From a virus: a stretch of 60,736 nucleotides of DNA. The translations under genes and the position numbers were made by a program. This document shows, in pieces, positions 10,991-60,736 of this stretch (position 1 is the first letter of the stretch; every line of letters starts with the position of its first letter). The notes under the pieces are model-generated. The model ran no database searches and was not told the origin of the DNA. It saw nothing but the letters and a program-made list of their open reading frames with translations. Where the stretch lies: positions 1 to 60,736 of the IMG/VR virus record IMGVR_UViG_3300017917_001558, one strand, 5' to 3'.

Positions 10991-12121
10991 ATGTTTAGTG
11001 TACATCAGCATTGGGATCCGCTGAAAGTTTGTGCTGTAGGTCGTAGTTATCCTCCTGAATTTTATTCTTGGATCACAGTACCACATGTTCGCGCTTTGTT
11101 TGAACGCATTGCGATCGAAACTGAAGAAGATTATCAAAATATAATAAAAAAATTACAAGAGTTTGGTGTAACTGTGTTAAGAACAAATTTACCCACTGAA
11201 ACTTTTAAGTTTGGACGTTTCGCTGCCCCACCTATGTGCCCACGAGATCACACTGTGATGATTGGGAATACATTTTATACTAGATTTGGCAACACCGACA
11301 TTGGCGTCAAAAATTTTTATACAAATGTCAAAGATCAAAGTTGGCCAGAATGCAACAGTTTAGAAGAATTCAACAATCTTCCTGCGCACATTCAAGAAGA
11401 GTGTAAGGTAATCCATGGTATCAACCAATATATCATCGATCCATATACTGATATTGTGAACTATGTTAAAGCTCAAGGAAACACTGTCAAATACACAAAC
11501 AGTTATCCAGTCAATGGTGCAATGATTGCACGAATAGGTAAAGATTTATATTTTGGTACTGAAAATTACGATCAAGATCAGCAAACGTATAAATCATTCA
11601 TTGATCAAGAATTCCCTGATCACAGGAACCATATTGTAAACACCGGGGGGCACAGTGACGGTGTGTATTGTCCAGTTTGTCCAGGATTAATTATAAGTCT
11701 GTTTGATGTTCCTACATATCAAGATACATTTCCAGACTGGGAAGTTGTTTTTTTACCTGGCCAAAGTTGGAACAAAGTCAACGGATTCTTACAACTTAAA
11801 CAAAAAAATGCAGGCAAATGGTGGATACCAGGGTTCGAACAAGATCAAGATGTTATCGACTTAGTCGAGTCTTGGCTAGGACATTGGACTGGCTATGTAG
11901 AAGAAACAGTGTTTGACGTCAACATGTTGATTGTTGATTCAAAAAATGTTATAGTATTCAATTACAACAAAACAGTTTTTGATGCACTGGAACGATATGG
12001 CATTACTCCACACATTGTACCGTTTAGGCACAGATATTTTTGGGACGGTGGCATACATTGTGTAACTAGTGATTTACATCGTGAAGGTTCTATGCAAGAT
12101 TATTTTCCAGAAAGAGGCTAA
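10991..12121 (+). CDS. Amidinotransferase / arginine deiminase superfamily enzyme
   Basis: The 376 residues carry all three catalytic blocks of the guanidino-group-modifying superfamily: CPRD (83-86, the Asp), GGHSDG (219-224, the His) and GGIHC (353-357, the Cys nucleophile), the last followed by VTSDLHREG. The length and the GGxHC-TxDLxR end fit glycine amidinotransferase-like enzymes better than short dimethylargininases. Such enzymes move an amidino group from arginine or hydrolyse it. The acceptor cannot be told from sequence. The gene lies in an accessory stretch of the plus operon after the GNAT-like gene and 1 bp before the DUF6614-like gene. No transferred-gene signature such as an adjacent integrase is seen. 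Confidence 0.85.
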   Translation: MFSVHQHWDPLKVCAVGRSYPPEFYSWITVPHVRALFERIAIETEEDYQNIIKKLQEFGVTVLRTNLPTETFKFGRFAAPPMCPRDHTVMIGNTFYTRFGNTDIGVKNFYTNVKDQSWPECNSLEEFNNLPAHIQEECKVIHGINQYIIDPYTDIVNYVKAQGNTVKYTNSYPVNGAMIARIGKDLYFGTENYDQDQQTYKSFIDQEFPDHRNHIVNTGGHSDGVYCPVCPGLIISLFDVPTYQDTFPDWEVVFLPGQSWNKVNGFLQLKQKNAGKWWIPGFEQDQDVIDLVESWLGHWTGYVEETVFDVNMLIVDSKNVIVFNYNKTVFDALERYGITPHIVPFRHRYFWDGGIHCVTSDLHREGSMQDYFPERG

Positions 12122-13950: not shown

Positions 13951-14379
13951 TTAAATTTTGTTGATTATGTGACTGCCGTGGACGCGAACTTGAATGTGAC
14001 CGTTGTAGTAGTCTTTGCTTTCAAGCACACGCCGTGAAAATTGTTCTCTAGCTTCGATATAACTGCATTCTGCTTTTGATTTACAGTAATATAATATTTC
14101 TCGTTTGAAGTTTTCTTTGCCTAATGATTCAACGTCCTTGGTTAATTCTGGACTGGACCCGTAGTATTCTTGCCAGTCTGAATCCACCTTGGTGCGAATC
14201 TTCTTTTTCTTCTTGCTGCCGTTTTTGAGTTTAACTGTTCGTTGAGTTGTCTTTGAGAACTTTGCTAGTTTTTTGCCTATGTATTTGCGATCGTTTGCTG
14301 TATTAGTGATCATGTAGACAAAGCCCACGCAATCTTCTGGGAGAGTTTCCACTGGTTGATTTTCGTAAAGCCATGTCAT
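13951..14379 (-). CDS. GIY-YIG-like nuclease
   Basis: A 142-aa protein with the GIY half-motif in GFVYMIT (19-25) and the YIG half-motif in KYIGKK (33-38), then a basic loop with KKKKK, DWQEYYGSSPELTKDVESLG and YIEAREQF, which supplies the glutamate expected in this nuclease fold. Similar stand-alone proteins occur in T4-like phages, where some are homing endonucleases (Seg type) and others are uncharacterised. No intron or split gene is seen here. It is the last gene of the minus operon, 18 bp after a radical SAM gene, and is directly followed by the hairpin-rich region. Confidence 0.75.
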   Translation of the reverse strand: MTWLYENQPVETLPEDCVGFVYMITNTANDRKYIGKKLAKFSKTTQRTVKLKNGSKKKKKIRTKVDSDWQEYYGSSPELTKDVESLGKENFKREILYYCKSKAECSYIEAREQFSRRVLESKDYYNGHIQVRVHGSHIINKI

Positions 14380-14397: not shown

Positions 14398-15408
14398 TTA
14401 CCAAGAAGTTGCATATTTTTCGTTAACTACGTCGTTTTTACATTTAGTCTGGCATTCTTGCCATTTAAATGTTTGAAACTCAGTATTCCAAAACGAATCT
14501 GCTAATACGTCTGTTAATGTTCTGTTGTTTAAATCAAAGTTGTTTGCTAGTTGCTGCCAGTCTGAATTGTGATTGTATCTGTTTGCTACCCAGCAGCAAG
14601 GGAATAACCTACCGCGGGCATCAATGTACAAACCTTTGTTGCCTATCTCGCACAACGGTGTGATACCGTTGCGACTTTTAGTTTGATTGAATAATTTGTT
14701 GTTTGTAAATGAGATTGATTGCCACCCGCCAGCGTCTGACAATGATGTAATCTCACGTTCAAAACGATGCGTATTGCTTATGTATTTTACACTGGGTTCC
14801 AATGGATCGTCGACTCCATAGGATGAATACACACTGCCAAACTTTGTGCTTTTGGTTAACTGAAATCGATCTACACCAAGTTGTTTGGCAAACTTTTCCA
14901 TGTATTCTAAATGTTCTTCGTTAAATTTGAATGCAATTGCTGCCCATACAATTTGACAACGGCTTGCGGATCTAAGTGTTTGCAACCCTGCAATAATGCT
15001 CTCAAAGTTGCTGTTTACCCGATACAAGTTGTTGCTGGCATTGTCGTAGCCGTCTATGCTAAAGTGAACGCTGTCGTTTTGATCCAATAGTTTGGCCAGT
15101 TGCAACCACCAAGATACCTTCTTGTGACTACCATTGGTAACGATGACAATTTCAACAGGCTTGATATTCTTAATGTACTCAATCACTGGAATTAAATCAT
15201 GTGCGTAGATAGGATCGCCATCGTCGCCACAAAACGTAATCTTCTCAACATTGGCTAATACGAATTCTGGAGTGAAGTTACGTTTGAAAAAATCTAGATT
15301 TAGTTCTGTGTTGATTAATCCGTTAGATACTTCTTGACGTGCGCAACGAGGGCAAGCAAGAGTGCATTTGCTTGAGATTTCAATATGAAAGTGCCAAGTC
15401 GCTAACAT
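14398..15408 (-). CDS. Radical SAM protein with SPASM-like C-terminus
   Basis: The 336-aa protein has the CX3CX2C iron-sulfur motif at Cys15, 19 and 22 (KCTLACPRC), followed by FCGDDGDP near residue 60 in place of the usual GGEP and IVTNGSHK near 93. C-terminal cysteines in PLCEIG, FPCCWV and CQTKC form a SPASM-like auxiliary cluster region. This layout is typical of peptide-modifying or anaerobic sulfatase-maturing type enzymes, but the substrate is unknown. Its start overlaps the stop of the small upstream gene (TAATG), so they are co-translated. It differs in domain order from the two radical SAM genes upstream. Confidence 0.88.
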   Translation of the reverse strand: MLATWHFHIEISSKCTLACPRCARQEVSNGLINTELNLDFFKRNFTPEFVLANVEKITFCGDDGDPIYAHDLIPVIEYIKNIKPVEIVIVTNGSHKKVSWWLQLAKLLDQNDSVHFSIDGYDNASNNLYRVNSNFESIIAGLQTLRSASRCQIVWAAIAFKFNEEHLEYMEKFAKQLGVDRFQLTKSTKFGSVYSSYGVDDPLEPSVKYISNTHRFEREITSLSDAGGWQSISFTNNKLFNQTKSRNGITPLCEIGNKGLYIDARGRLFPCCWVANRYNHNSDWQQLANNFDLNNRTLTDVLADSFWNTEFQTFKWQECQTKCKNDVVNEKYATSW

Positions 15409-15779
15409 TATGTTACATCCGGTTCAATTAGCCATCCAAAATTTAAAACTTTGTGCAACCAAGAAAACACAGGGTACTTGTAGTCAAGAGTCCAATTGCC
15501 GCCAGCAGCAATTACATGACTTTGATAACTTTGTCCAGTCGCATCGTTGAATGTACCAAAATAGCGAAGCTTTTCTTTACCCAAGGAAAACATTTCAATG
15601 CTTTCAATCTCTACAGACTGATCACTGTTGTGTTTTAACATCAATGTATTTTCTAATTGTGTTTCAAGTTGAATTCTATGTTTGTTGCCATCTGCTGGAA
15701 TAGTTGCAGCAAGATTATTGTTGTGATAGATGAGTACATCAATACCAATGTTGTTTAGCTTGATATCAACTATGTTCAT
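15408..15779 (-). CDS. Small unknown protein between radical SAM genes
   Basis: A 123-residue, probably beta-rich protein, MNIVDIKLNNIGIDVLIYHN onward, with VIAAGGNWTLDYKYPVF near the end. No cysteine, signal peptide or membrane segment is seen. I chose ATG 15779 because GAGGAG lies 7 bases upstream; the in-frame ATG at 15794 overlaps that ribosome site and would leave no site of its own. It overlaps the upstream radical SAM gene by 14 bp and the downstream one by a TAATG junction, so a partner or substrate role for those enzymes is possible but is only inferred from position. Confidence 0.6.
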   Translation of the reverse strand: MNIVDIKLNNIGIDVLIYHNNNLAATIPADGNKHRIQLETQLENTLMLKHNSDQSVEIESIEMFSLGKEKLRYFGTFNDATGQSYQSHVIAAGGNWTLDYKYPVFSWLHKVLNFGWLIEPDVT

Positions 15780-17013
15780 GAAAAAACTCCTCAAGGTCAG
15801 GATAGACTGAAATAAATGTTTGATCCCGATCTAACTTATTGTTGAACTGCACAAACTGTTGTCGCAGACTGTGTATGTCAGCAGGTTCTAACTCATTGAG
15901 CAAGGCCAACAAATGTTCAAGATGCTGTGTTAGCACACTGTTAAATTTTGTTTGATCTCTGAGATTTATAATAGTATCGTTGGGTACCAGCCACTTTGCA
16001 TATCGTTGCTTTAATTTTTCTGTTAATATATTTTTGTATGCTGTAGGCAACACCACTACACGTAAAAACTCTGGATGGGATAGATTGTTATTGTCGATAA
16101 TCAATTGATGTTTGATAGCAAAGTCAATTAGAGTATGATAGTCGCCAATACTCAATGCTTGCGGTACTGGTCGCAAAATAATTTTTAGTTGTTCTGATTG
16201 GTTATTCAAATACTGTTCAATGTTAGATTGTACATGTTGATGATCACTCCCAATCCTGATATAATTATTACTGGTTGAAAAATTTTCCACACTTACTTCA
16301 ATTTGAACAGAGTTAAATTTTTTTAACTTGTCAACAAGAGATTGATCATACCCTGTACAGTTGGTTACGAAATTTAAATCAAAGTTTGTATAGTCATTGC
16401 TGATACACCAATCAACAAATTCATAAAATCGATGATGTATCAAAGGCTCACCGCCCATGAAATGTATACTCAATAACTGTTTGTTGTCTTCTACCAAGTT
16501 TAAAAAACTCTTCCATAGTTCATCATCTGTAGTCCAGTCTAACAACGTAGGAGTATCAGTTGGTATCATGTTCAATCTCTTGCGTTGGTCAGACACTTTG
16601 CTGCTGTTAAAAGCATTGCACATTCTGCAGGCCAAATTGCATACATTGCCCAAACTCACATGTAAAAATGCAGGCTTGATAACGTTTACAGAATTCAATC
16701 TAGATTGAATGGGACTTTGTTTAAAACTGTCTTCAAACCATTGATCATGTATAGCAGCTTGCAAATTTCTCTTTTGTCTGGCACTAGGTAATCCAAATTG
16801 TTCCTGGTGCTGGCAAAGTTCGCAGCTAGGCAAAACATCACCAGTTAGTATTTGTGCTCTATGCTGCCCTAGTTTGCTGTCGTTGTTAAACCATTGAATA
16901 AAATTTGTAGGTTTTGTAAATCGTTGATGACTTGAGTGACAATAGCGAACACTACCGTCAACATCGATACGAACTTCATACCAAGGGCTTGCGCAAAAAT
17001 TTTTAGAGTCCAT
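15766..17013 (-). CDS. Radical SAM protein, N-terminal auxiliary cysteines
   Basis: A 415-aa protein with the CX3CX2C motif at Cys125, 129 and 132 (VCNLACRMCNA) and FMGGEPLIH near 190, the SAM-binding GGEP. Before the core domain lies a four-cysteine set, Cys7, 25, 64 and 67 (FCASPWYEVRIDVDGSVRYC and SCELC), as in twitch/SPASM auxiliary iron-sulfur domains, here placed at the N-terminus. VTNCTGYD (about 226) is the beta-5 region. It is a paralogue of the gene upstream (17003-18283), which shares length, cysteine spacing and C-terminal helices. The two overlap by 11 bp. The substrate is unknown. Confidence 0.88.
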   Translation of the reverse strand: MDSKNFCASPWYEVRIDVDGSVRYCHSSHQRFTKPTNFIQWFNNDSKLGQHRAQILTGDVLPSCELCQHQEQFGLPSARQKRNLQAAIHDQWFEDSFKQSPIQSRLNSVNVIKPAFLHVSLGNVCNLACRMCNAFNSSKVSDQRKRLNMIPTDTPTLLDWTTDDELWKSFLNLVEDNKQLLSIHFMGGEPLIHHRFYEFVDWCISNDYTNFDLNFVTNCTGYDQSLVDKLKKFNSVQIEVSVENFSTSNNYIRIGSDHQHVQSNIEQYLNNQSEQLKIILRPVPQALSIGDYHTLIDFAIKHQLIIDNNNLSHPEFLRVVVLPTAYKNILTEKLKQRYAKWLVPNDTIINLRDQTKFNSVLTQHLEHLLALLNELEPADIHSLRQQFVQFNNKLDRDQTFISVYPDLEEFFHEHS

Positions 17014-18283
17014 ATGCTTTATAAAATTCTACCAAATGCGGGAATGTTTTAGCAAAGTCAGTGCCCAGCATGCGATCATGGTCCTTGGTATGTTGCACAA
17101 ACGTTTTTCTAAGATCTTCGATATCATCTGGTTCGGGTTGATCTAACCAAATACATACTTTTTTAATACCGTTTGCGATACTTGTATTAGTGACATTTGC
17201 ATACCTCTGTCTAAGGAACTCACTGGTTCGTGCTTTTACTTCTGGTGGCAAAATTTCTAATTTTAAAAATCTCTGCGGATGTATAGTTGTAATCCATGAC
17301 TGTAAATCATATTCAACACAGATATCTAAAAATGTATGAACTTTTTCTACTGTATACACCATTGGGGTAGGGTGCGCTCCTACTATAAGTCTGCCAGGAA
17401 TTTGGTGTTCAAGAAACTTAAAAAAGTTTTTGCAAACAGATTGATAGTCTGCACCAACTCGAACATAGTCGTTGACTGGGTCAATGGCTTCTATGCTGAT
17501 ATCTATATAACAGTGGTCAAATTTTTGAAGTTTGTTTATGAGAGTTTGATCAAACACAGTACAGTTAGTGCTAAAACTAATTTTGATATCGGTGCGGTTG
17601 TGCTTGATCAACTGGTCAATTAGTTCATAAAATTTTGGAGTTACCATAGGCTCTCCTCCGTTGATGACTAACTGATGAAGATCTCGATTGTTTAAAACAA
17701 AAGATAAAAAATCTTCCCAACGTGCTTGATCCTGGGTCCAGTCCAGGTCGCTTGGCAAATCTCTAGTGCCAGGTAGAGCCGAAATAGTGTCTTGATAATT
17801 GTGCTGATCGTAAATTTTTGCTAACTTATTGCTGCCAGTGCGGAAACAATGTCTACAACTCATGTTGCATTGATTGCCAAAGATTACAAAAACAAAGTGA
17901 GGATTTAAATTTTTAGATCCTAGCCTTGACATTACAGTACTTTGTTGTACGCTCTCATGAAAAAATTCATTATCCACTATTGCAGCACGTAAATTTTCAC
18001 TTTTGCGATAAGCACCATTCACTGTTACTTCTTCAGGAACACATCGATTACAACCAGCAGGAAATTTTCCATCAAGCATGGATTCCCTGGCCTCCATCAG
18101 CAGAGTTGAGTTATTAAAGAAGTCATGAAGAGACCCACTAGGCTGTTCCCAGACATCTGTTGCCCTTGAACAATAACTTGCTGTTCCATTGGCAGTGATG
18201 CGTAAGTAATACCAAGGGTTAACACAAAATGTATTTGGGCTTATGTTTTTAATTTCGATTTTTTTCGTACCAGATAACGCCAT
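17003..18283 (-). CDS. Radical SAM protein, paralogue of the next gene
   Basis: A 426-aa protein with CX3CX2C at Cys139, 143 and 146 (QCNMSCRHCFR) and VINGGEPMVTPKFYELID near 210. The N-terminal set Cys20, 38, 78 and 81 has the same spacing as in the adjacent paralogue (CX17C, then CX2C). STNCTVFDQTLINKLQKF aligns with the corresponding VTNCTGYD segment. The C-terminal part (LRQRYAN, EDIRD-like helices) also aligns, so the pair arose by tandem duplication and has diverged widely. It overlaps the upstream unknown gene by 35 bp. No substrate can be read from sequence. Confidence 0.88.
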   Translation of the reverse strand: MALSGTKKIEIKNISPNTFCVNPWYYLRITANGTASYCSRATDVWEQPSGSLHDFFNNSTLLMEARESMLDGKFPAGCNRCVPEEVTVNGAYRKSENLRAAIVDNEFFHESVQQSTVMSRLGSKNLNPHFVFVIFGNQCNMSCRHCFRTGSNKLAKIYDQHNYQDTISALPGTRDLPSDLDWTQDQARWEDFLSFVLNNRDLHQLVINGGEPMVTPKFYELIDQLIKHNRTDIKISFSTNCTVFDQTLINKLQKFDHCYIDISIEAIDPVNDYVRVGADYQSVCKNFFKFLEHQIPGRLIVGAHPTPMVYTVEKVHTFLDICVEYDLQSWITTIHPQRFLKLEILPPEVKARTSEFLRQRYANVTNTSIANGIKKVCIWLDQPEPDDIEDLRKTFVQHTKDHDRMLGTDFAKTFPHLVEFYKAYGL

Positions 18284-18959
18284 GATTTTGTAACCAATCC
18301 ATTGTGCTAAGTTTGTAACTTATTTGTTCTTTGACCTGTGCAACAGTAAAATCGGTTTGTTTTGGCAACCAATGCTGATGATTTTGCTGTAGACATTTGA
18401 TATTCTGTGCCCATCCTTGTGATTCCAAGCTGTTTGCAAAATCTGGATTGAATAAGTTATCAAAGTTTAATTGTTGTCCTGCACTGCTGATTCTATGCAG
18501 CATATCTTGTTTTGAACGTTTGTAAGCAAAGTCAAACCAGACATGTGCTGCTTTGTCAAACTGTTCTTTAAGACATAGGTTCTGAATAAGTTTAAAGAAG
18601 GTGCCACTGTCCACAGCGATTCTTAATCTCTGCAACCATAGCTGTCTATTTATTACACGATCAAAAACGTCTGAATCGTGAATTACTATGCTAACACGAT
18701 TGTTAGGCAACTCATCAAACAAGTGAGTACTAATGTATTGATATGGCAAAGATCCACAAACTTTCTCAAGCGTGGTCTCACCGTTTCTTATTTGATCATC
18801 ATAATTTTTTATGCTGTAGAGTGTGTTAACTACTGCAATGTTGTTGCCAGCACCGTAGTCTTGGTCAGCCAATATTAAACCGTTGCAAGAGGCAGCAAAC
18901 ATATCTCCTCCACTGCCTCCGTGATAGCTAACAAAAATACGATTATCCAATTTCAACAT
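18249..18959 (-). CDS. Unknown protein with GGSGG loop
   Basis: Residues 1-20 of the chosen start (MLKLDNRIFVSYHGGSGGDM) give a hydrophobic strand followed by GGSGG and a helix, like the start of two other unknowns in this operon and of sulfotransferase-like folds. No further motif confirms that fold. I chose ATG 18959 because it places the strand at the N-terminus as in the relatives; in-frame ATGs at 19031 and 18983 give longer proteins deep inside gp46, and none has a strong ribosome site. It overlaps gp46 by 17 bp and the next radical SAM gene by 35 bp. No function is proposed. Confidence 0.55.
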   Translation of the reverse strand: MLKLDNRIFVSYHGGSGGDMFAASCNGLILADQDYGAGNNIAVVNTLYSIKNYDDQIRNGETTLEKVCGSLPYQYISTHLFDELPNNRVSIVIHDSDVFDRVINRQLWLQRLRIAVDSGTFFKLIQNLCLKEQFDKAAHVWFDFAYKRSKQDMLHRISSAGQQLNFDNLFNPDFANSLESQGWAQNIKCLQQNHQHWLPKQTDFTVAQVKEQISYKLSTMDWLQNHGVIWYEKNRN

Positions 18960-20706
18960 CTGTGTTGTAACTTGTAAACCCATTTTCTTTGATAACTTTG
19001 AGTATGTTTTCGACTCGCCCAGCAAGTTCATCTCTATGAGACACTAGCCAAATTGACTTGTTACGTTCTCGAGTCATCTTCTTCAGCAAGCTCAGTGCAT
19101 TCTCCACACCTTGGGTATCCAAACCATTGTCAATGAGTTCGTCAATAAACAGCAAGTTGATAGGATGGTATAAACTTTCCCACACATCACGGAATGCCCA
19201 GCTCATGCTTAGAATCAATCTGTTGCGTTCGCCTCGACTCAAGTTATCAAAGTCAAGCTCACGGCCTAGCTCTTCAATAGAGACTGTGAGATCGTTTTGG
19301 AACTTAACTGTGTGCGGAAGTCCAATACGATCCAAGTAATGTGTTAGACGTTGGTTCAAGTAGCTCAAGTTTTGATCAATAATCTTTTTACGAACAAAGC
19401 TGTCCTTGCTTGTTAACAACTTGAGTAAAAAGTCTTGGTGTTCTTGCAAACGTACCAATTCGTTTAATGCTTCGTAACTGACTTCTTGCAAAGCCTGTGC
19501 TTGCATGTCGGTAATTTGTTCAGTGTACGGGTCAACATCTTGTTGTCTATTAGATAAATCCTTGCGCAAAGTTTCTACTGAGTTTCGATGATTTAATGCT
19601 TGCTCTAATGTGTCATAAAACACAGTGGGCGCAGTGCCAATAGGTTCAATTTTGGCAATAGTATCTATGTGTTCGTTGCGTTGAGTATCGTTAGCCAAAA
19701 GTTGCAACGCAGTTTCTTGTAGCAATGCTTGTTTGGCCTGCTTCAGTTCATCTTGTTTGTTATCATGCAAGTCCTGTCCGCAACTATGACATTTGTGATT
19801 GTCCAGTGCTTCAAGCTCTTTTTTGAGCTTCTCCAACAACTTATTTTGCTTGATATCATCTGCATCAATTTGACGAATGTACCTGCCTGCTTCTTCAACT
19901 GCTTTTTTCTTTTGATGGTACACATCAAGATCTCTATGCGACTGAACCTCGGCGTCAATATCAATATGTTCAAGATCAACTATGGCTTGAGATAGCTTGC
20001 CTACGTCTTCATCTCTTTTGGCAACCCAAAGGCGTTGTCGTTTGCGCAGACTTTCAATTTGCTCTTCGATGCGCTTGTTGGCTTCTTGCACAGCTCGAAT
20101 ACGAAATTCTTCTTGTGAAATAGCATCTTTGGTAGATTTGTTTAATTCTTTGATACGATCAGCACGCTCACTTAACAAAGTGATGCCCAGTAACTGTTCA
20201 ATAATAACACGTTGATCGTTTGCTTTCAAGCTCAGAAACGGTTCTGTGTAAGTATTCAATGCCAAGATATGCTTGAACATGTCATGACTCATACCAAACA
20301 CACGCTCTATGGCGTCTTGTGTTTCTCTTGAATCGCCTTGCGCTTCATCTGTCGCTGACTTCTCTTCGTTGTTGACATAAAACTTCAGCACGTTGGGTTT
20401 GCGTCCACGCTCAATTCGATATTCCTGCCCGCCAACAATAAAGTCTAAACTGACCAACATACCTTTGCCATTGGTTTTGTTTACCAAATTGTCTTTGCGG
20501 ATGTTGCTTAATGCTTGTCCATACAGTGCATAGCTCAGTGCATTGATAATTGTAGTTTTACCAGTACCATTGCGACTGCCATCTCCACCCATGTCTAAAT
20601 TTTCGCCCAACACCAAGGTCAGGTCATTACGGTCAAAGTCAATGCCTTGTGTGGCATTGCCCACACTCATAAAGTTTTTGACAGTGAGATTTTTAATATG
20701 AATCAT
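18943..20706 (-). CDS. 46: Recombination endonuclease subunit gp46 (Rad50/SbcC-like)
   Basis: The ATPase subunit that with gp47 resects DNA ends for recombination-dependent replication. The 587 aa (T4 gp46: 560) hold the Walker A motif GSRNGTGKTT at 43-52, long coiled-coil arms, a zinc-hook CHSCG at about 305, the signature-like LSRGERNRLILSMSWAF near 488 and Walker B LLFIDELIDNGLD near 520, ending with the LVSHRDEL switch region. All parts of a complete protein are present. Its start overlaps the oxygenase gene stop by 4 bp (ATGA). Confidence 0.95.
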   Translation of the reverse strand: MIHIKNLTVKNFMSVGNATQGIDFDRNDLTLVLGENLDMGGDGSRNGTGKTTIINALSYALYGQALSNIRKDNLVNKTNGKGMLVSLDFIVGGQEYRIERGRKPNVLKFYVNNEEKSATDEAQGDSRETQDAIERVFGMSHDMFKHILALNTYTEPFLSLKANDQRVIIEQLLGITLLSERADRIKELNKSTKDAISQEEFRIRAVQEANKRIEEQIESLRKRQRLWVAKRDEDVGKLSQAIVDLEHIDIDAEVQSHRDLDVYHQKKKAVEEAGRYIRQIDADDIKQNKLLEKLKKELEALDNHKCHSCGQDLHDNKQDELKQAKQALLQETALQLLANDTQRNEHIDTIAKIEPIGTAPTVFYDTLEQALNHRNSVETLRKDLSNRQQDVDPYTEQITDMQAQALQEVSYEALNELVRLQEHQDFLLKLLTSKDSFVRKKIIDQNLSYLNQRLTHYLDRIGLPHTVKFQNDLTVSIEELGRELDFDNLSRGERNRLILSMSWAFRDVWESLYHPINLLFIDELIDNGLDTQGVENALSLLKKMTRERNKSIWLVSHRDELAGRVENILKVIKENGFTSYNTDVEIG

Positions 20707-23088: not shown

Positions 23089-23969
23089 ATAGGATAAAGT
23101 AGTTCTTTTAATTGTACACTACTTGTAGGGAACGTGTCAAGCCCGTGACACCTTATTTCAAACCCTAATTCTCTCAATTGGTATTGTATCCAACATTCGC
23201 TGACCAATGACAAAGGTTCCCAAACCAATTCTTGATCGTTCGTCACAGCGTTAATAATGTCCTTGGTCAGTTTGTCATGAGTTAGGTACGTTTGCTGAGA
23301 TAAATTTTGAGCATGATATGGTGCCAAGTCACTGACTGGTCTAGCAAAGTTTAAATTGCAAAACTCCTTGATGTTATTTAATGTTTGCTCAAAATTACAA
23401 AGCAAGTCTGTAACAGACACCACTAATCCATTTGGTTGTTGCCAGGCATTGGGATCATGCCATTCCAATGTGGTAAAGTAACCATTGATTAGTTGATAGC
23501 TTAAAAATTCTCGACGAATCCAAATTGGAATATCATCAATGCTAGTTCCAGAATTGATTGGCCAATTGTTAAACAGACGACTGACAAAATCTGGGTTATT
23601 CCTACAAGTAACCCCCCACCAATCACGACGGATTTTTGTGTAAGAGTTATTAAGACACAATACAACAGAGTTAGAATCTGGACGTAAGTGTATCACAAAC
23701 TCCGCTTCATTGCAAAGTTGATTTAAGTGATCAGTGATTGAATCTTTGGAATAAATTTTGGGATGGAGCCTTACAAACTGCGCCGACCTACCTTTGCTAC
23801 GAAATTTTTGCCAGCCACGGAAATCGTAAAGATGCTTACCAATATAACCGTGACTGTTTCCGGCTCTTTTAAAAGGAGACACTATGTCGTTTTTACTACA
23901 CAGTGTGGTCAGGCACCATTCAAGATATGTGCCATAGGCCCCGGCGCTGTACGCTATTGCAACAGTCAT
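23085..23969 (-). CDS. Unknown protein, sulfotransferase-like fold suspected
   Basis: A 294-aa protein starting MTVAIAYSAGAYGTYLEWCL, a strand-turn-helix like the phosphate-binding start of sulfotransferase-like folds. EFVIHLRPDSNSVVLCLNNS near residue 90 may be the second conserved strand, and VVSVTDLLCNFEQTLNNIKE near 183 matches the C-terminal helix typical of that fold. Catalytic residues cannot be assigned. It is placed between gp55 and gp47 with 4-bp overlaps on both sides. It is related in layout to the genes at 21284 and 18249, but sequence identity outside the first 20 residues looks low. Confidence 0.5.
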   Translation of the reverse strand: MTVAIAYSAGAYGTYLEWCLTTLCSKNDIVSPFKRAGNSHGYIGKHLYDFRGWQKFRSKGRSAQFVRLHPKIYSKDSITDHLNQLCNEAEFVIHLRPDSNSVVLCLNNSYTKIRRDWWGVTCRNNPDFVSRLFNNWPINSGTSIDDIPIWIRREFLSYQLINGYFTTLEWHDPNAWQQPNGLVVSVTDLLCNFEQTLNNIKEFCNLNFARPVSDLAPYHAQNLSQQTYLTHDKLTKDIINAVTNDQELVWEPLSLVSECWIQYQLRELGFEIRCHGLDTFPTSSVQLKELLYPI

Positions 23970-24865
23970 TCTTCGTAAGTGGTAGTAACAGGTCCGCTAA
24001 GTGCAGCCATACCAGCTTTGCCAGAGTTCTGACGAGTCCAGCTAGGATTCAATCCGTTCATCTCAAGGATGTCGTCTCGGATATTTTGATTTTTCTTTTC
24101 GATGTTAAGAATTCGTGTAAAGCTATTAGTAATGGCGGCAGTATAATAAGCGAAGGGATTCTGTGATTTTGATTCATCAAATTGCAAACCAATTTGAGAC
24201 AGTTGTAATAGAGCTTGTCCACGCATTTCCTCATTGTAAGTGTAGCCACGCCAGTTGCTACGTGTAGCATAGCGTTCGCATAATTTCATAAACATCAAGG
24301 CAAGTTTCTTGGTCATGTTGCCATGCTCTCTACAGAACTCGCCTGTTTCTAAGTCACCTTTCCAGTGACTGCGCCCCACAATATAAGGCTTCTTGTCTTC
24401 GTCAATGCGAAAGTGTTCAAACGGCGGAAAGTTCAATCTCACATGGTTCAAATCCAACACCGGTTCTTCTACTAAGTCTGCCAAGGGATCATCTTCAGTG
24501 GCATCATCCAAGTCCAAAATATCTTCCAGCTTTCTGCGTTTGGCTTCGGCCTTGGTAATTTTTTTAGGTGCTTTGGGAATATGGTCCCAGCATGTAATAC
24601 GAAACACTAGATCTGTGTTAGGGATCTTCTTTTGATCAATAATTTCGCCTGTTTCGCGCTTGATACGGTCAGCACGATTGCGTCTTGCTTCTGCAATGGT
24701 GCGTTGATTGATTTTGTCCAGGTTAGGTAAGATCAAATCGTACTGATGATCGTTTACACGATCTCGGTACCAACAGTAAGTGTTTTTGCTGTGGTGTATC
24801 TCTTTCAAGATGTCTCTGTTGTTTAAGTAGTTGACGCGGGGCGCCGCTTTTGGTAGTAAACTCAT
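23966..24865 (-). CDS. 55: Late-transcription sigma factor, gp55-like
   Basis: It should direct host RNA polymerase to the TATAAATA-type late promoters. The C-terminal part holds the conserved sigma region-2-like block: GNMTKKLALMFMKLCERYA near 182, NWRGYTYNEEMRGQALLQL near 205 and SKSQNPFAYYTAAITNSFTR near 233, then LNIEKKNQNIRDDILEMNG. This matches gp55-like proteins of aquatic T4-like phages more than T4 gp55 itself (185 aa). The 299 residues include about 150 extra N-terminal residues with a charged, partly acidic linker. It is first in its operon and has a sigma70-like promoter, consistent with being made before late genes. Confidence 0.78.
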   Translation of the reverse strand: MSLLPKAAPRVNYLNNRDILKEIHHSKNTYCWYRDRVNDHQYDLILPNLDKINQRTIAEARRNRADRIKRETGEIIDQKKIPNTDLVFRITCWDHIPKAPKKITKAEAKRRKLEDILDLDDATEDDPLADLVEEPVLDLNHVRLNFPPFEHFRIDEDKKPYIVGRSHWKGDLETGEFCREHGNMTKKLALMFMKLCERYATRSNWRGYTYNEEMRGQALLQLSQIGLQFDESKSQNPFAYYTAAITNSFTRILNIEKKNQNIRDDILEMNGLNPSWTRQNSGKAGMAALSGPVTTTYEE

Positions 24866-59083: not shown

Positions 59084-59728
59084 ATGCTAGACAAAATAAT
59101 TCAAACAGCTCGAGATACAAACAAGCAAATATTAATTCTTGCGGCACCAAGAACAGGCACCCATGCGTTGGGGCAAGAGATTGCTGTTGTATCTAAGGCA
59201 AAGAATTTTAGAGAAATTTGTATGACTGGTCATTGTGATGACCCATGGCAGGACATACACAGTCTGATAGATTGCAAAGTGTTTGCTGTGGGGCATGTTG
59301 TTCAACTTACTCCAAAAATAGTATTGGCAGAAAATGTTGAAAAAATAAAAAAACGATGTGTATTGGTCAATATCAAACGCAAAGACCTAGTATTGCAGTT
59401 TGCTAGTTGGATGTATTTTAGAGTTTTAGATCCCACAAGCCTTCACGGTTGGCACAATCATAGTAAACAAAAAACCAGAATACAGCCCGGCCAAATAGTT
59501 GCCAAAAAGGAAGATATTGATCAATTTAAACTCGAGCAAATGTTAGACGAATATTTTTTGCCTGACTTTAGATTATGTTATGAGACTATGAATTTTGGTC
59601 AACAGAAATTATATCAAAAAAATCAATTCAGTTTTCCGCTGCCGCAGATGTTTTCAAATTTAGATTTTGTACAACAACAATTAGGCACTTGGAAATTCAC
59701 ATCAGCGCATTTAGGACAAAATGAATAA
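59084..59728 (+). CDS. Sulfotransferase-like protein
   Basis: A 214-aa protein starting MLDKIIQTARDTNKQILILA. The first strand and loop, ILILAAPRTGTHALGQEIA (about 16-34), match the 5'-phosphosulfate-binding PRxGTH loop of sulfotransferases. LVNIKRKDLVLQFASWMYFR near 93 could contain the 3'-phosphate-binding Arg/Ser region. It is short for a full sulfotransferase. It may sulfate a glycan or peptide made by neighbouring gene products. It starts 1 bp after the glycosyltransferase-like gene, and its stop overlaps the next gene by 8 bp. Confidence 0.65.
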   Translation: MLDKIIQTARDTNKQILILAAPRTGTHALGQEIAVVSKAKNFREICMTGHCDDPWQDIHSLIDCKVFAVGHVVQLTPKIVLAENVEKIKKRCVLVNIKRKDLVLQFASWMYFRVLDPTSLHGWHNHSKQKTRIQPGQIVAKKEDIDQFKLEQMLDEYFLPDFRLCYETMNFGQQKLYQKNQFSFPLPQMFSNLDFVQQQLGTWKFTSAHLGQNE

Positions 59729-60736
59729 CAAAGGCGATGAGTCAGTGGGGACGCAAAGCAAGTTCCTAAGTGCGGCGCAACGCATGAAAACTCAATTGGG
59801 GCCCGCCTTGTGTCTAGCTAAATGGAAACAGGTAAGTCTGCATCTGCCCACTGGACTGAACAATAGTTGTTATCATCCTCCACTGCATAAAATTGACACA
59901 AACGATCTTGCAACCAACCCTGCTGCGTTACATAATACTGCTCACAAAAAACAGCAACGGGTCCTAATGCTCAAGAATGAACGTCCTACAGAATGTCAAT
60001 ACTGCTGGAACATGGAAGACCTGGGCAAGATGTCAGATCGCCACTACAGATCTGGGGAACCTTGGGCCGCTGTGGACTTTGAAAAAATCAAGAATTCAAC
60101 CGGAGAAGAAACAGATGTCATACCTTCATACGTTGAGGTTAATTTTAATAACGCTTGTAACCTTAAGTGCTCTTATTGTAGTCCCCAGTTTAGCTCTAGC
60201 TGGGGAGATGAAGCTAATCGTTGTGGCGCTTATCCTACTGCTACACCACACAATAGTCCTGAACATTTTACTGGGGCTAGACGTGTCATTCCCGCTAGGG
60301 AACATAATCCCTATGTTGAAGCATTTTGGCAGTGGTGGCCAACACTTTACCCTGAGCTCAGACACTTTAGAATGACCGGTGGGGAACCGTTATTAGACAA
60401 AAACACATACAGAGTATTTGATTATGTTCTAGAACACCCCAAGCCAGACTTACACTTAAACGTAACATCAAACTTCTCAGTAGATCAAAAGTCATGGGAG
60501 AAATATCTTGACTATGTCAAACGCTTGTGCCAAGCGGGTAACCTTGAACACTTCATGCAGTATGTCAGTTTAGATGGCTGGGGTGCGCAAGCAGAATACA
60601 TGCGCCACGGCATGGACTTTGATCTAGTATGGGATAGAGTAAATCAATACCTAGCAGAAGTGCCCAGTTACAACAGTTTAACTTTTATTGTTACAATGAA
60701 CAATCTTTCAGTGCCTAGCTTGGAAAACTTGTTTGC
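59721..60736 (+). CDS. Radical SAM protein (cut by right edge)
   Basis: From ATG 59721 the frame is open to the window end (338 codons seen). It has CX3CX2C at Cys146, 150 and 153 (ACNLKCSYC), FRMTGGEPLLDKNTY near 213 and LNVTSNFS near 247. N-terminal cysteines 31, 50, 92 and 95 (CX18C, CX2C) repeat the layout of the two paralogous radical SAM genes at 15766 and 17003, though sequence similarity is low. The C-terminus is missing. It lies directly after the sulfotransferase-like gene and overlaps it by 8 bp. The substrate is unknown. Confidence 0.85.
   Translation, partial: MNNKGDESVGTQSKFLSAAQRMKTQLGPALCLAKWKQVSLHLPTGLNNSCYHPPLHKIDTNDLATNPAALHNTAHKKQQRVLMLKNERPTECQYCWNMEDLGKMSDRHYRSGEPWAAVDFEKIKNSTGEETDVIPSYVEVNFNNACNLKCSYCSPQFSSSWGDEANRCGAYPTATPHNSPEHFTGARRVIPAREHNPYVEAFWQWWPTLYPELRHFRMTGGEPLLDKNTYRVFDYVLEHPKPDLHLNVTSNFSVDQKSWEKYLDYVKRLCQAGNLEHFMQYVSLDGWGAQAEYMRHGMDFDLVWDRVNQYLAEVPSYNSLTFIVTMNNLSVPSLENLF

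Follow-up and report, generated by a model that had tools for sequence, protein, structure and literature searches.

A radical SAM enzyme with an N-terminal twitch forms a conserved gene pair with a small protein in uncultured phages

We analysed a stretch of 60,736 nucleotides (the window), positions 1 to 60,736 of the IMG/VR virus record IMGVR_UViG_3300017917_001558, which is the 60.7-kb record of a T4-like phage carrying the late sigma factor gp55, SbcD/gp47 and SbcC/gp46. A sequence-only reading had pointed to three radical S-adenosylmethionine (SAM) genes with a small protein among them, and its coordinates were all correct: rSAM1 (17003..18283, 426 amino acids (aa)), rSAM2 (15766..17013, 415 aa), an open reading frame (ORF) of 123 aa (15408..15779) and rSAM3 (14398..15408, 336 aa), all on the minus strand. 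Our results show that the small-protein gene is tied to the clade of rSAM2 and not to rSAM3: a homologue of it lies directly downstream of the enzyme gene, overlapping it, in 65/76 complete rSAM2-clade loci. This overlapping adjacency is conserved in the window and in dozens of distant relatives, and it is therefore very probable, from the gene arrangement, that rSAM2 and the small protein work together. We further propose, with confidence about evenly balanced, that they may constitute a two-gene module in which rSAM2, an N-terminal twitch (N-twitch) enzyme, is served by a dedicated partner docking through its tail.

Results

The small gene follows one clade of N-twitch enzymes

IMG/VR was scanned with an alignment of rSAM2, rSAM1 and the N-twitch enzymes of two further loci (L246 and L148), which returned 80 loci, 76 of them complete. 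Membership of the neighbouring gene in the small-protein family was assigned by profile in 58/76 (E<0.01), and by tail inspection or a re-set start in 7 more. The remaining 11/76 have no small gene, and mostly SegE stands immediately next to the enzyme. As controls, the family profile was applied to 36 loci holding 50 other N-twitch-like ORFs, where it found 0 members, and to 80 rSAM3 loci, where it found the family in 1. Among the sampled N-twitch enzymes, a single clade carries the small protein. The earlier reading had placed this protein with the radical SAM enzymes as a set, which holds for the rSAM2 clade but not for rSAM3, since 79/80 of the close rSAM3 loci are without it.

Comparison of 47 non-redundant pairs, in which identity between the enzymes falls as low as 25%, gives a correlation of 0.78 between enzyme and small-protein distances (permutation maximum 0.24), indicating joint inheritance. 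In a maximum-likelihood tree all paired enzymes, ten enzymes without the small gene and rSAM1 fall in one clade (support 97/92), where the ten group together as a single subclade (100/100); three label changes are needed, and the simplest history is a single gain of the small gene and its loss on two occasions. The small gene is also under purifying selection, the ratio of nonsynonymous to synonymous substitution rates being 0.08-0.16 in the four closest pairs.

The pair is maintained in at least three differing contexts. The gene preceding the rSAM2-like enzyme, which usually overlaps it by a few bases, is another radical SAM gene in 27 loci (mostly rSAM3-like, in the slot between gp46 and SegE), ClpP in 20 and a tail-fibre-like gene in 10. 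Presence of the small gene beside these enzymes in relatives was one point on which the sequence-only reading had made itself depend, and its core idea passes: besides the 65 paired loci, the order gp46, rSAM3-like, rSAM2-like, small protein, SegE is found in 16 contigs, of which one breaks off ahead of gp46. Pairs lying directly after a tail-fibre-like gene (L259-L262, L265, L266, L274, L279, L321 and L325) lie in an operon that also contains tailoring genes, one of them amidinotransferase-like.

The small protein and its tail

Several features support the earlier description of a protein translated between the enzymes with overlapping junctions. The ORF overlaps both neighbours (the junctions g18249/rSAM1, rSAM1/rSAM2, rSAM2/small and small/rSAM3 overlap by 35, 11, 14 and 1 nt, g18249 being the accessory gene ahead of rSAM1), a Shine-Dalgarno-like GAGGAG lies 7 nt upstream of its ATG, and its codon usage matches that of phage genes in its own frame alone (+0.26 versus -0.24 and -0.43). 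A 128-aa version started at TTG (15408-15794) is less likely than the start at the ATG at 15779.

Single-sequence searches with the small protein gave no match in IMG/VR, INPHARED, Pfam, NCBIfam or PHROGs; two family members gave none in 50,697 phage records, and pairwise shuffle tests among the small proteins of the window, L063 and L122 gave no signal. The family emerged through other loci. A 207-kb contig (L148) has the order gp46, rSAM3-like enzyme, N-twitch enzyme, 156-aa protein, SegE, and its 156-aa protein matches that of the window (phmmer E 1.6e-4); in L246 an N-twitch enzyme is followed by an overlapping 150-aa family member that matches the window protein at E 5.8e-6. A profile of five such proteins recovered four more members at 5.7e-9 to 2.4e-6 and then reached the window protein at 8.7e-4; a family profile joined the small proteins of the window, L063 and L122. 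The family as such has no match in Pfam, PHROGs or PDB.

Partners in the family measure 98-161 aa (about 100 aa in L254 and L255), and their strongest conservation is C-terminal, in the tail that reads GNWTLDYKYPVFSWLHKVLNFGWLI in the window. Across the 47 pairs P103 and G115 never vary, and conservation is at least 96% for W107, H109 and W116, so that a signature P.F.W.H....LGW is near-invariant in rSAM2-paired proteins; compare the ends of L254 (WTIEYTYPVFSYLHKLLKHGWLI), L255 (WTLKYEYPIFSWLHKILQHGWLL) and the window (WTLDYKYPVFSWLHKVLNFGWLI). The LGW(I/L)Y end or close variants were seen only in members paired with N-twitch enzymes, and not in those beside B12-binding radical SAM enzymes or without a radical SAM neighbour.

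More distant members lie beside B12-binding radical SAM enzymes in several phages (L063, L122, L129, L136, L149, L151, L163, L198, L240, L248 and L250), another recurring association in which the C-terminal tail differs, and one (L241) lies beside a radical SAM enzyme without the N-twitch. Members without a radical SAM neighbour (L242, L243, L251 and L253) come from contigs of 260-345 kb and are flanked on one side by a beta-rich protein of 122 aa that may belong to the virion and on the other by a nucleotidyltransferase-like gene. L122 (JAIXHM010000126.1), which was binned as Flavobacterium, has N-twitch genes, an rSAM3 relative and a member of the small-protein family; it is probably a phage contig that ended up in a bacterial bin.

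The radical SAM enzymes of the locus

Both rSAM1 and rSAM2 match NF033640 (N_Twi_rSAM) over their full length, with 227 and 263 bits against a curated cut-off of 170, and Pfam Radical_SAM (PF04055) is above cut-off in all three enzymes. In rSAM1 and rSAM2 the cysteines are spaced CX12GX4C, then a CX2C pair, then CX3CX2C. The N-terminal set that the sequence-only reading called unusual is indeed present and unusual, but it belongs to an already named family, and the C-X17-C of that reading is CX12GX4C, the usual twitch spacing. The cluster cysteines are intact: C7, C25, C64, C67, C125, C129 and C132 of rSAM2 are conserved in 46-47 of the 47 pairs, rSAM1 retains all seven in the alignment, and the twitch cysteines and CX3CX2C are invariant in the enzyme alignment A5.

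The two enzymes had also been described as tandem paralogues. Both are NF033640 members and rSAM1 sits, long-branched, within the clade of paired enzymes, but the nearest kin of rSAM2 sit in other phages and not next door: it groups with L254 and L255 (support 99/90; 47% and 45% identity) and scores 275 bits against the L246 N-twitch enzyme versus 231 against rSAM1. Its place in the tree marks rSAM1 as a second, divergent copy from the rSAM2 clade. Scanning viral contigs with the single sequences of rSAM2 and rSAM1 gave no match. An identity as viperin was rejected for all three enzymes, which score 29, 30 and 41 bits against a curated cut-off of 180, with weak matches to pVip; for rSAM3 we obtained 29 bits, far under that cut-off.

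The SPASM-like C-terminus ascribed to the third enzyme is there: besides CX3CX2C, rSAM3 has a C-terminal CX12GX4C...CX3C (C253, C271, C319 and C323). Its auxiliary cysteines are C-terminal and not N-terminal, and NF033640 is absent from the 25 families listed for it. Its model (predicted local distance difference test score, pLDDT, 75) has structural matches at the level of the fold only, BlsE being the top Foldseek match. It has the radical SAM barrel in common with viperin/pVip (PADLOC, NF038283), which it matches weakly by profile, and differs from these and from BlsE in its additional C-terminal four-cysteine module.

rSAM3 has 300 relatives in viral contigs, the best 80 of which (73-83% identity) occupy the same site, between gp46 and SegE wherever both borders are present. 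In that first sample, selected by rSAM3 itself, it appeared to be a core gene (80/80 loci). A second sample, selected by an exact 18-base motif of a neighbouring RNA, comprised 53 contigs with both gp46 and SegE; a close orthologue (66-82%) was found in 15, a distant one (36-48%) in 12, only a weak match to another radical SAM enzyme in 7, and no rSAM3-like match in 19, which overturned the core-gene reading. rSAM3 is therefore a common yet optional resident of the slot.

The gp46-SegE slot in the phage genome

Other genes of the window encode a baseplate-hub protein, and its structural genes are very long. Its minus-strand operon runs gp55 (23966-24865), 23085, gp47, 21284, a 2-oxoglutarate oxygenase, gp46, g18249, rSAM1, rSAM2, the small gene, rSAM3 and SegE, and almost every junction overlaps. 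The upstream border of the slot is SbcC/gp46 (18943..20706, minus strand; phrog_77, 342 bits) and the downstream border a SegE-like GIY-YIG protein (13951..14379, minus strand; PF19835, 1e-34). The inserted block opens with g18249 (18249..18980, minus strand, 243 aa), which has a glycine-rich loop near its N-terminus and no family match in Pfam, NCBIfam or PHROGs.

A radical SAM set in a phage recombination operon had been considered unusual. Junction occupancy and the RNA-selected contigs show instead that the location is a recurrent cargo slot: additional genes occupy gp55/gp47 in 16/45 loci, gp47/gp46 in 43/64 and gp46/rSAM3 in 40/76, and just 1/76 has the rSAM3/SegE junction occupied, SegE adjoining rSAM3 in 75/76. 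Elsewhere the slot hosts many unrelated tailoring genes. The G+C content at third codon positions (GC3) of the block from g18249 to the small gene is 0.31-0.34, against 0.40-0.45 in gp55, gp47, gp46 and rSAM3, as expected for inserted cargo.

Directly after SegE lies a Polynucleobacter-1 RNA (RF01718; 13795..13938, minus strand; 89.8 bits versus a gathering score of 37), a 3′ neighbour of the operon that is outside the rSAM2-small module. RF01718 is listed for Burkholderiales and for fresh water and estuary (PMC2864571). We found its exact core motif in 105 viral contigs; in 59 of 80 examined, a same-strand SegE ends upstream at a distance of no more than about 150 nt, and SegE is somewhere in the locus in 73. 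The RNA appears to be conserved among phages.

A further cargo site, also flanked by conserved genes, holds an amidinotransferase-like gene (10991-12121, plus strand) with no Pfam match; the radical SAM cluster of phage CP220 likewise includes a putative glycine amidinotransferase. The window ends (59721-60734, plus strand) inside a syntenic cluster of five N-twitch enzymes, also seen in L115-L120, which includes glycosyltransferase-like genes, an SGNH-like hydrolase and a NodU-type carbamoyltransferase and adjoins tail genes. This phage lineage is rich in N-twitch enzymes, one 320-kb contig reaching 19 matches. A-type Fe-S carriers are present in four of the largest contigs, and PMC5332604 reports such carriers for marine T4-like phages; a search of 15 contigs found no ferredoxin gene (PF00111).

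Discussion

The observation of the sequence-only reading is confirmed, and its interpretation is partly supported. NF033640 matches rSAM1 and rSAM2 over their whole length and with the same cysteine spacing, but the family name gives neither a partner nor a function, and neither the family record nor the papers we found assign a function to N-twitch proteins; here, one sampled clade carries a small protein. The arrangement resembles the maturation clusters of ribosomally synthesized and post-translationally modified peptides (RiPPs; PqqE-PqqD, SuiB, EpeE, SkfB), where an auxiliary-cluster radical SAM enzyme likewise stands beside a small protein with a conserved part, and a conserved pairing of a maturase candidate with a precursor candidate is what we see in the 65/76 loci. 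It differs in that the twitch of rSAM2 is N-terminal, the partner exceeds the usual precursors in length and the family also occurs without radical SAM enzymes. No RiPP recognition element (RRE, PqqD-like) was matched by Pfam in the enzymes or the small protein, nor did we find a precursor-like short peptide; small-protein relatives also lie with other enzymes or none, and the peptide maturation suggested earlier is not established.

Radical SAM clusters in T4-like phages are not new. Three papers describe such clusters in the Campylobacter phages CP220 and CPt10 (PMC2853527), up to 12 radical SAM enzymes in marine T4-like genomes (PMC5332604) and pelagimyophage cassettes with radical SAM genes (PMC7029224). 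There multiple radical SAM genes accompany amidinotransferase, glycosyltransferase or Fe-S assembly genes, and in the parts read no conserved pair with a small protein is described. CP220 and Pelagibacter phage Mosig have no member of the small-protein family, and we found no paper on the pair in the open-licence literature.

How, then, would the two proteins work together? The partner, probably a small all-beta domain, may dock on rSAM2 via its C-terminal tail (P.F.W.H....LGW) and either present a bound substrate or complete the active site, while translational coupling would hold both proteins at similar amounts. rSAM1, as a diverged extra copy, may share this partner, and rSAM3 would be an enzyme apart, sharing the slot but occurring more widely. 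What finally results is probably a modified structure of the phage or host surface, because related clusters in these and other T4-like phages sit with glycosyltransferases, carbamoyl- or amidinotransferases and tail-fibre-like genes. This is the weakest step of the proposal: the neighbouring genes (glycosyltransferase-like genes, a NodU-type carbamoyltransferase and the five syntenic N-twitch enzymes in these phages, together with the gene neighbourhoods in phages Mosig and CP220) only loosely indicate surface or glycan chemistry. Several observations weigh against this proposal. The small protein modelled alone is unreliable (pLDDT 45), the copy in the window is a shortened version without the NK...D motif that most family members have, and some members have no radical SAM neighbour. 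Moreover, the distance correlation speaks for joint inheritance and not for contact, and the clade of ten rSAM2 relatives without the small gene implies that the latter is not indispensable in every lineage.

The main rival, possible though less probable, is that the small protein is itself the substrate, rSAM2 modifying its aromatic and His-rich tail (for example by cross-linking, epimerisation or oxidation) with the folded domain acting as leader. Twitch and SPASM radical SAM enzymes commonly act on peptides, the tail, only a few residues from the C-terminus, is conserved far more strongly than the remainder, and the finding of the LGW(I/L)Y end in N-twitch-paired members alone keeps this reading open. 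However, the G.W.L.F..P.F.W part is also present in relatives without a radical SAM neighbour, so that this part is at least partly fold core; overlapping translation suggests equal and not excess amounts; and no constant set of RRE, protease or transporter accompanies the pair, ClpP preceding it in 20 loci only. The relatives without a radical SAM neighbour, together with translational coupling, lead us to favour a partner over a substrate.

It is unlikely that the two genes are co-transferred neighbours without direct contact, serving one pathway (such as glycan decoration) and held together by operon structure. The many unrelated tailoring genes of the slot and the occurrence of the family without radical SAM enzymes would fit such a history, but pair, order and overlap persist while other neighbours vary, and in the same phages the small protein was never seen with N-twitch enzymes of other clades. 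Our initial reading, that the small gene is orphan cargo, a lineage-specific ORF unrelated to the enzymes, drew on the failure of single-sequence searches and the low GC3 of the block. Profile searches revealed both family and pairing, and the 65/76 paired loci against 0/36 and 1/80 in the controls refute it, leaving it a negligible probability.

Beyond a docking partner for rSAM2, the pair may, tentatively, represent a new class of radical SAM system, to date seen in uncultured phages only, in which an N-twitch enzyme either modifies the C-terminal tail of a cognate folded protein from a new family or works by way of it, carried as a portable two-gene cassette. If so, the N_Twi_rSAM family would gain a first substrate or subunit, and phages would have a radical-based post-translational modification that is theirs; should the target of the pair be a phage protein, a virus would be carrying out protein modification by radical chemistry. 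The near-invariant tail would be a first handle on what N-twitch enzymes act upon, and a dedicated partner makes the question of their function directly testable.

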